Assembly: GCA_024278215.1 (NCBI GenBank)
Contig: JAJRTR010000022.1
Span: 1-13,599, forward strand
Origin: a bacterium
Lineage (GTDB): Bacteria > UBP15 > UBA6099 > JAJRTR01
Length of the DNA: 13,599 bases
Direction: 5' to 3'
The notes below the pieces were generated by a model. It was given only the letters and a program-made list of their open reading frames with translations, was not told the DNA's origin and searched no databases. This document shows positions 8,131 through 13,599 of this stretch, in pieces. The translations under genes and the position numbers were made by a program. Numbering within the stretch: position 1 is the first letter of the stretch; each line of letters opens with the position of its first letter.

Positions 8131-8473
8131 AATGATCCTCCCCCGGCTGTTGTTGTTTTCAGCCCGACAATCTATGGAGCCAATTTCAAAACTCCAATTC
8201 TGCTGCGGTCGTCTGCAATTGTCTATTGTCGAGTTGTCGCCCCAAAATCGTCCTCATCGTACTCTGCGAGTACGTCTGCGGGGATTTTGCACCTCTCGTC
8301 TTGCTATCAACAATTCCGCTCGTCCTCGCCGCGAACATAATTTTGCAATTGGCTCTTGCGCGCAAATCATCAGTAAAGTTAATGTATCACGTTCCAGAAA
8401 AACACGTTAAGTGTAGAATAAAGTGCTGGATTCCGACTTCGCCGTTACGTCAGATAAAAAACGGCAAACAGTC
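8131..8473. other. Intergenic region holding repeat copy B
   Basis: This 343-bp spacer lies between two minus-strand genes. Over half of it is the repeat at 8177-8355. Between the repeat and ATG 8130 are the ribosome binding site and 46 bp of leader. Between the repeat and the DUF1232-like stop (8356-8473) I see no ORF and only weak stems, for example ACAC/GTGT with a short T-run on the minus strand, too weak to call a terminator. Confidence 0.6.
8177..8355. repeat. Complete 179-bp MITE-like interspersed repeat, copy B
   Basis: Terminal inverted repeats GAGCCAATTTCAAAA (8177-8191) and TTTTGCAATTGGCTC (8341-8355) differ at one of 15 positions. Inside, CAAAATC (8243-8249) pairs with GATTTTG (8283-8289), and at the apex CGTACTC (8258-8264) pairs with GAGTACG (8268-8274) over a TGC loop, so the unit can fold as one long imperfect hairpin. 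Nearly gapless similarity to 13484-13599 and an end match at 1898-1955 establish it as a repeat family. It is too short for a transposase and shows no recognisable protein. No clear target-site duplication is visible. Confidence 0.85.
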
Positions 8474-8980: not shown

Positions 8981-9201
8981 TTCGCCCTCCGAAATTTCAT
9001 TATTCCTTTGCCTTCTTTGACATTACCACTTTTTCAATCGTGAAGCAAGCATAAAAGCCGTCAAACGGCAAGTGCTGATCACAAATTGTGTTCTGTCGAG
9101 CCGATCGTGCTATTCTGATTATTCTGTCGCGTCCGTCGGCTGGTCGGTCTGTTATGCGCCGGTATTATTATGCGGAAATTGCACGATTGCTTCATTATTT
9201 C

Positions 9202-9223
9202 AACATAATTTTGCAGTCGTCTC
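9202..9223 (+). repeat. Possible worn end of the interspersed repeat, copy D
   Basis: This stretch matches 19 of 22 positions of the right end of copy B (8334-8355), including the run AACATAATTTTGCA. About 30 bp upstream, TGCGGAAATTGCAC recalls the TGCGGGGATTTTGCAC inside copies B and C, as if the part between had been lost. It is short and could be chance in AT-rich DNA. Confidence 0.35.
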
Positions 9224-13230: not shown

Positions 13231-13483
13231 GGTTGTGTATCCTTAATAATATAAATTAGACAAAACAGATTAGAAATTGTTCAAAATTACTGATATTTCA
13301 TCAGTGTCGGAAAAACCATGATTGTCGAGATTTATGGGTTAACAGCAACACAGCGGCAGGATGAAGAACGCTGTATCTGTTCACAGGTAACTGTTCGCAA
13401 TAGAACATCTGGAATGCCTGGAATGCAAACAGTTGCAGAATGCCACCGGGCACGATCTGGAATTTATGAGAGATCATTTATAA
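13231..13483. other. Upstream region of the sensor kinase, before repeat copy C
   Basis: This stretch holds the putative kinase promoter (13255-13284) and a small inverted repeat CTGAT/ATCAG (13290-13304) just upstream of its -35. From about 13310 to 13483 I find no convincing gene. Short open frames exist, but none has a ribosome binding site or recognisable protein. Confidence 0.5.
13255..13284 (-). promoter_or_regulatory. Probable sigma70-like promoter of the sensor kinase
   Basis: On the minus strand TTGAAC (plus 13279-13284) and TCTAAT (plus 13255-13260; 5 of 6 consensus) are separated by 18 bp. Transcription would start near 13248, leaving a leader of about 18 nt that still contains the AAGGAT ribosome binding site. 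Confidence 0.4.
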
Positions 13484-13599
13484 GAGCCAATTGCAAAATT
13501 CTGATTCGGCTGCGGTCGGCTGCAATTGTCAACATCTGCATTGTCGGCACAAAATCTTCCTCGACGTACTCTACAAGTACGCCTGCGGGGATTTTGCAC
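13484..13599. repeat. MITE-like repeat, copy C, cut by the window end
   Basis: The element begins GAGCCAATTGCAAAATT and aligns without gaps to the first 116 bp of copy B (8177-8292), with about 94 identical positions counted by eye. The apex hairpin (CGTACT 13565-13570; AGTACG 13576-13581) and the CAAAATC/GATTTTG pair are kept. Differences cluster in one segment (13534-13543). Its right end would be expected about 63 bp past the window. Confidence 0.85.

Follow-up and report, generated by a model that had tools for sequence, protein, structure and literature searches.

A high-copy family of 178-bp MITEs in a bacterium of a little-sampled phylum, sharing its ends with an IS1182-like element of another bacterium

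The repeat found in the window, i.e., the whole 13,599-bp stretch of DNA that was analysed, is a transposed element rather than a gene or a member of a described RNA family. It is rightly called a MITE on the basis of its many copies, its terminal inverted repeats, the 4-bp duplication of its target sites, and the occurrence of the same ends on a transposase-bearing element in another genome. The original prediction had proposed a dispersed MITE-like family from the window sequence; the family proved to be a true MITE and larger than had been claimed. Very probably, it is a non-autonomous 178-bp element mobilised in trans by an IS1182-like transposase, with later decay of the copies and loss of the partner. 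As far as was found, this high-copy family has not been described before, and its host belongs to a little-sampled phylum, of which seven genomes were covered here.

The window corresponds to contig C197, one of the 207 contigs of a MAG of 4.55 Mb that is 95% complete with 1.3% contamination. The following features were assigned in the window.

8177..8355, plus strand: full-length MITE copy B, 179 bp
8177..8191, plus strand: left terminal inverted repeat of copy B, GAGCCAATTTCAAAA, 15 bp
8341..8355, minus strand: right terminal inverted repeat of copy B, GAGCCAATTGCAAAA on the minus strand
13484..13599, plus strand: MITE copy C, interrupted by the end of contig C197
1898..1959, minus strand: truncated copy that covers only the right-hand third (model positions 117-178)
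9172..9223, strand not given: possible worn mini-element with end motifs that point towards each other, 52 bp apart

Copy B was complete as predicted, and its ends (GAGCCAATTTCAAAA / GAGCCAATTGCAAAA) agreed over 15 bp with the single mismatch that had been described. It showed 85% identity to the family consensus and 86% to its nearest relative, and is among the older copies of the family. No recognisable target-site duplication was found in its flanks (TATG / TTGC), i.e., the duplication of copy B is no longer visible. The gapless alignment of copies B and C spans 116 bp with 81.0% identity, which reproduced the predicted value of about 81%. Copy C, which had been reported as truncated at the window end, is interrupted by the contig end at 13599, and its 116 bp are 99% identical to a copy on a different contig, at L097:7746. 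The end fragment predicted at 1898-1955 was recognized across 1898-1959, where 57 of 62 positions were identical to the reverse-complemented family consensus before the match ended. A worn end had been suggested with a "perhaps" at 9202-9223. It may be the right half of a worn 52-bp mini-element at 9172-9223, an uncertain assignment with weak matches to the end motif (12/17 and 14/17) and no flanking target-site duplication.

The family was sampled in 716.8 kb of the genome in 40 stretches and in shorter loci, and full copies were extracted by profile. The 40 stretches together with the window formed the main sample of 730 kb. The search of the own genome gave at least 40 scored matches among 451 first-look candidates. 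In the genome sample, 71 distinct full copies were found, 67 of 177-180 bp and the rest of 167-176 bp, and the consensus element is 178 bp. The genome-wide count that the original prediction had proposed as a check was extrapolated from the 46 full copies within the main sample to approximately 290, which may be somewhat high because the sampled stretches were chosen partly for holding matches. Across the 4.55 Mb of the genome, 310 occurrences of the exact 17-base end were counted against 0 of its reversed pattern, so chance was ruled out, and the further copies on which the prediction had been staked do exist. With up to one mismatch, the 15-bp end occurred 568 times genome-wide (0 for the reversed pattern). 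Terminal inverted repeats of 15-17 bp were present on nearly all full copies. The element carries no transposase gene; the ORFs over its 178 bp are short (38-105 aa) and overlap one another, each extends past an element end, and none is a plausible gene within it. No Rfam match was found in the window at gathering scores. The element is short and non-coding and has terminal inverted repeats, a fixed-length duplication and many dispersed copies, which are the features of a MITE.

The flanking duplications, which had also been proposed as a check, were recognized in the same copies. An exact 4-bp target-site duplication was present in 41 of the 71 copies against 1.6 in shuffled flanks, and 57 copies were counted when one mismatch was allowed (3 of 4 bases or better). 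Duplications of 2, 3, or 6 bp and more were at or near background, and 5-bp matching flanks were found in 6/70 copies. The flanks were AT-rich, i.e., 64% AT versus 49% overall. In the 730-kb sample, which is approximately 85% coding, 40 of the 46 copies were placed between long ORFs and six inside them.

Internally deleted forms of approximately 46-107 bp retained both ends. The 46-bp (TATC/TATC), 57-bp (TATT/TATT) and 59-bp (GAAG/GAAG) derivatives were flanked by exact duplications, and a 106-bp form (L079:2572-2677) by an exact AAAA duplication of low complexity. Because three of the shortest forms and the 106-bp form carry exact duplications, little beyond the ends seems to be needed for movement. 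At L093:3272-3440 and L067:5398-5564, an element end was joined to a different 171-bp body, 90% identical between the two loci and terminating in GGGGTCAGACC-type sequence, which is possibly a distinct derivative or composite. The 487-bp end pair at L093:2954-3440 was rejected, as the sequence inserted in it is unrelated and a transposase was not seen there.

To find the ends elsewhere, 84,980 species genomes were scanned for ATT followed by the 17-base end. Six loci were obtained, and the end was then counted in their five genomes. The larger element with the same ends and a transposase gene, which the original prediction had proposed to look for, was found in another bacterium. It is an insertion sequence (IS) of 1417 bp at G042:C20:4269-5685, in the Deltaproteobacteria MAG Zod_Metabat.965, and its ends bracket one transposase of 374 aa. 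One end is identical to the MITE end over 15 bp and the other has one mismatch, and the flanks agree at only 3 of 4 bases (CCAT / CGAT). In the transposase, the PF05598 (DUF772) and PF01609 (DDE_Tnp_1) domains were over the cut-off. The protein was 42-51% identical to annotated IS1182 proteins, including that of ISUnCu17 (plasmid relatives). Its best NCBIfam model was NF033551 IS1182 at 74.9 bits, below the cut-off of 270, so it is called only IS1182-like and formal IS1182 membership is not claimed. Two IS1182 relatives have GAGCCTCTTGCAAAA ends with ATGA duplicated and GAGGCTCTTGC ends with TGGT duplicated.

MITEs with other bodies that carry this 15-bp end at one or both termini were found in a Simkaniaceae MAG (163 and 67 bp), the Deltaproteobacteria MAG (121-123 bp), a Desulfonema MAG (132-133 bp) and a Lentisphaera MAG (121-122 bp). 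Most of those read had exact 4-bp duplications, and in three of these genomes one MITE end was GAGGTAATTGCAAAA, GAGGTTATTGCAAAA or GAGTTAATTGCAAAA. In the Lentisphaera MAG, a decayed and internally deleted IS1182-like transposase fragment has a GAGGTAATTTCAAAA end pointing towards it at a distance of approximately 190 bp. A single end motif without a partner end in Draconibacterium (L110) was taken as chance. No copies were detected in viral contigs and phages, and plasmids gave only short chance-level matches. The exact end sequence was not found in the open-access papers searched. The earlier remark that no described family has these ends therefore stands for the exact end within these papers, but not for the end type, which belongs to IS1182-like elements. 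The shared 15-bp end ties MITEs of unrelated bacteria to IS1182-like transposases. As at least four unrelated hosts combine this end with differing bodies, it is a good case for examining how MITE bodies originate and whether transposition is helped by the hairpin.

In the own genome, searches with the transposase protein, with DUF772 and with a four-protein profile (best E 0.33) did not reveal an IS1182-like transposase, and the partner was therefore inferred from other genomes. The exact end was absent from the other six genomes of the phylum examined and from all of the 385 other genomes of a broad sample. For this reason, the element is regarded as patchy and its source as probably horizontal.

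Other candidates for the partner were considered. The own genome contains IS4- and IS1634-type transposases, which are without matching ends. A decayed IS1380-type transposase fragment (PF13701) was found at L104:1501-1653, approximately 0.2 kb from a MITE copy; as a partner it was rejected because it is degraded and not bracketed by ends. Two inward-facing end pairs (L077:12672-15695 and L080:10842-14622) enclosed ordinary host genes and no transposases. The IS4- and IS1634-type transposases and the IS1380-like fragment are what could favour a MITE of another 4-bp-duplicating DDE family, i.e., IS5, IS4, IS1634, or IS1380 type, whose IS1182-like ends would be convergent. This origin is unlikely, since none of the genes is bracketed by the ends and the sole near-match, near L101, lies outside its gene. 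In contrast, the 15-bp end flanks both sides of the IS1182-like gene in G042, lies beside the decayed IS1182-like gene in Lentisphaera, and occurs in recognisable form on ISUnCu17-type relatives.

With an IS1182-like partner, the DDE transposase would have recognised GAGCCAATTGCAAAA ends, duplicated 4 bp of AT-rich target and moved the hairpin-bodied 178-bp element in trans. A small number of related master copies would have given rise to approximately 300 full copies, which would afterwards have decayed independently. The transposase gene would then have been lost from the genome, or it may sit in an unassembled gap. The copy number, the ends, the duplications, the intergenic placement and the presence of these ends on a transposase-bearing IS elsewhere are shown by the data; which type of transposase moved the copies, in what order the events took place and that the partner was lost is what we infer.

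The full copies were mutually about 90% identical on average, and the closest pair was 98.3% identical. The median identity was 94% to the consensus and 97% to the nearest neighbour. Folding gave a single long, imperfect hairpin across the whole element, with −65.0 kcal/mol and z −6.1 for the consensus and z −4.5 for copy B. Compared with copies in which the same substitutions had been randomly placed, the real copies were more stable by a mean of 4 kcal/mol. These values would suit a selected functional RNA or regulatory hairpin, e.g., a terminator, mRNA stabiliser or attenuator, which was only secondarily spread by transposition. However, private mutations did not avoid paired sites (43/94 vs 26/50 sites, p = 0.49), covariation was weak (8 pairs vs 3.7 shuffled), the Rfam search gave no match, and convergent gene ends were not preferred (4 of the 38 intergenic copies that could be placed). 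Such a primary function is thus quite improbable.

The original prediction had explained the exact length and preserved stem by constraint on the fold or by a recent shared source. The second part agrees with the copies, which radiate from the consensus. The first part was not supported for individual copies; substitutions counted over all copies were rarer at paired (4.4%) than at unpaired interior sites (9.4%), but private substitutions per site were even across paired (0.57), unpaired (0.66) and terminal sites (0.68), and nothing in the substitution tests indicated that single copies are kept folded. Hence, the hairpin is inherited and not visibly maintained. Because private mutations spare no paired sites, the excess stability is assigned to variants shared by subfamilies, i.e., to master copies, and shared ancestry in a few masters that were themselves hairpins best accounts for the uniform length and stem. 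As a tentative and rather doubtful extension, one IS1182-like transposase lineage may have repeatedly entered unrelated phyla, seeded in each host a separate family of hairpin MITEs on the same 15-bp ends and vanished, leaving up to hundreds of copies, with the masters in the present lineage selected to remain hairpins.

That the repeats are artefacts of assembly or binning is hardly credible: several of the 207 contigs, including the window, end within copies, but the copies lie at many distinct loci with differing flanks and matching 4-bp duplications, even the closest full-copy pair is not identical, and contamination is low.

Many contigs were seen to end inside or beside a MITE copy, i.e., the window at 13599 and, for example, C4, C6, C25, C62, and C174. 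The family therefore probably limits the assembly of this genome, and it is of practical use that it probably explains where the assembly breaks.

Among known systems, the ISUnCu17-type IS1182 elements of Aeromonas, Comamonas, and Acinetobacter plasmids are like the MITE in their ends, GAG(C/G)C...TTGCAAAA, and in their 4-bp duplications where readable (ATGA, TGGT). Their transposases are those with 42-51% identity to that of the 1417-bp IS. However, these elements are approximately 1.4-1.5 kb and encode a transposase, whereas the MITE is 178 bp and non-coding, with no such gene found in its genome. The 1417-bp IS of Zod_Metabat.965 differs from the MITE in having a transposase gene in place of the hairpin body, and its host is unrelated. 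Correia, ERIC, Chunjie, and QMITE are also short non-coding hairpins with tens to hundreds of copies, mostly intergenic and with truncated derivatives, but they are separate families of other hosts (PMC10969869). Since the quoted maximum of ERIC is 711 copies (PMC10969869), approximately 300 copies is a high number for a bacterium, yet it falls within what has been reported for other MITEs and is no record. IS1272 of Staphylococcus was placed in the IS1182 family and reportedly inserts in place of a stem-loop target, with no duplication of the target site (PMC5678879), unlike the present family with its 4-bp duplications.

Other repeats were found in the same genome. A second interspersed repeat, CCGGATTTCTCACAAAGGAATCCGGAAAA, is itself a hairpin and was located at L062:15179-15207, L075:12949-12977, L086:7317-7345, and approximately 20 further places. 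At the L062, L075, and L086 sites, it is found immediately internal to a truncated MITE end. In the window, a third dispersed repeat of 57 bp (13372-13428) was approximately 89% identical to L065:6296-6351. Two GGTGG-type hairpins, CCACCGATGAAATCGGTGG and CCACCGACAAGGTCGGTGG, were placed 79 bp apart at 1685-1803, and a third hairpin was found between them at 1732-1760.
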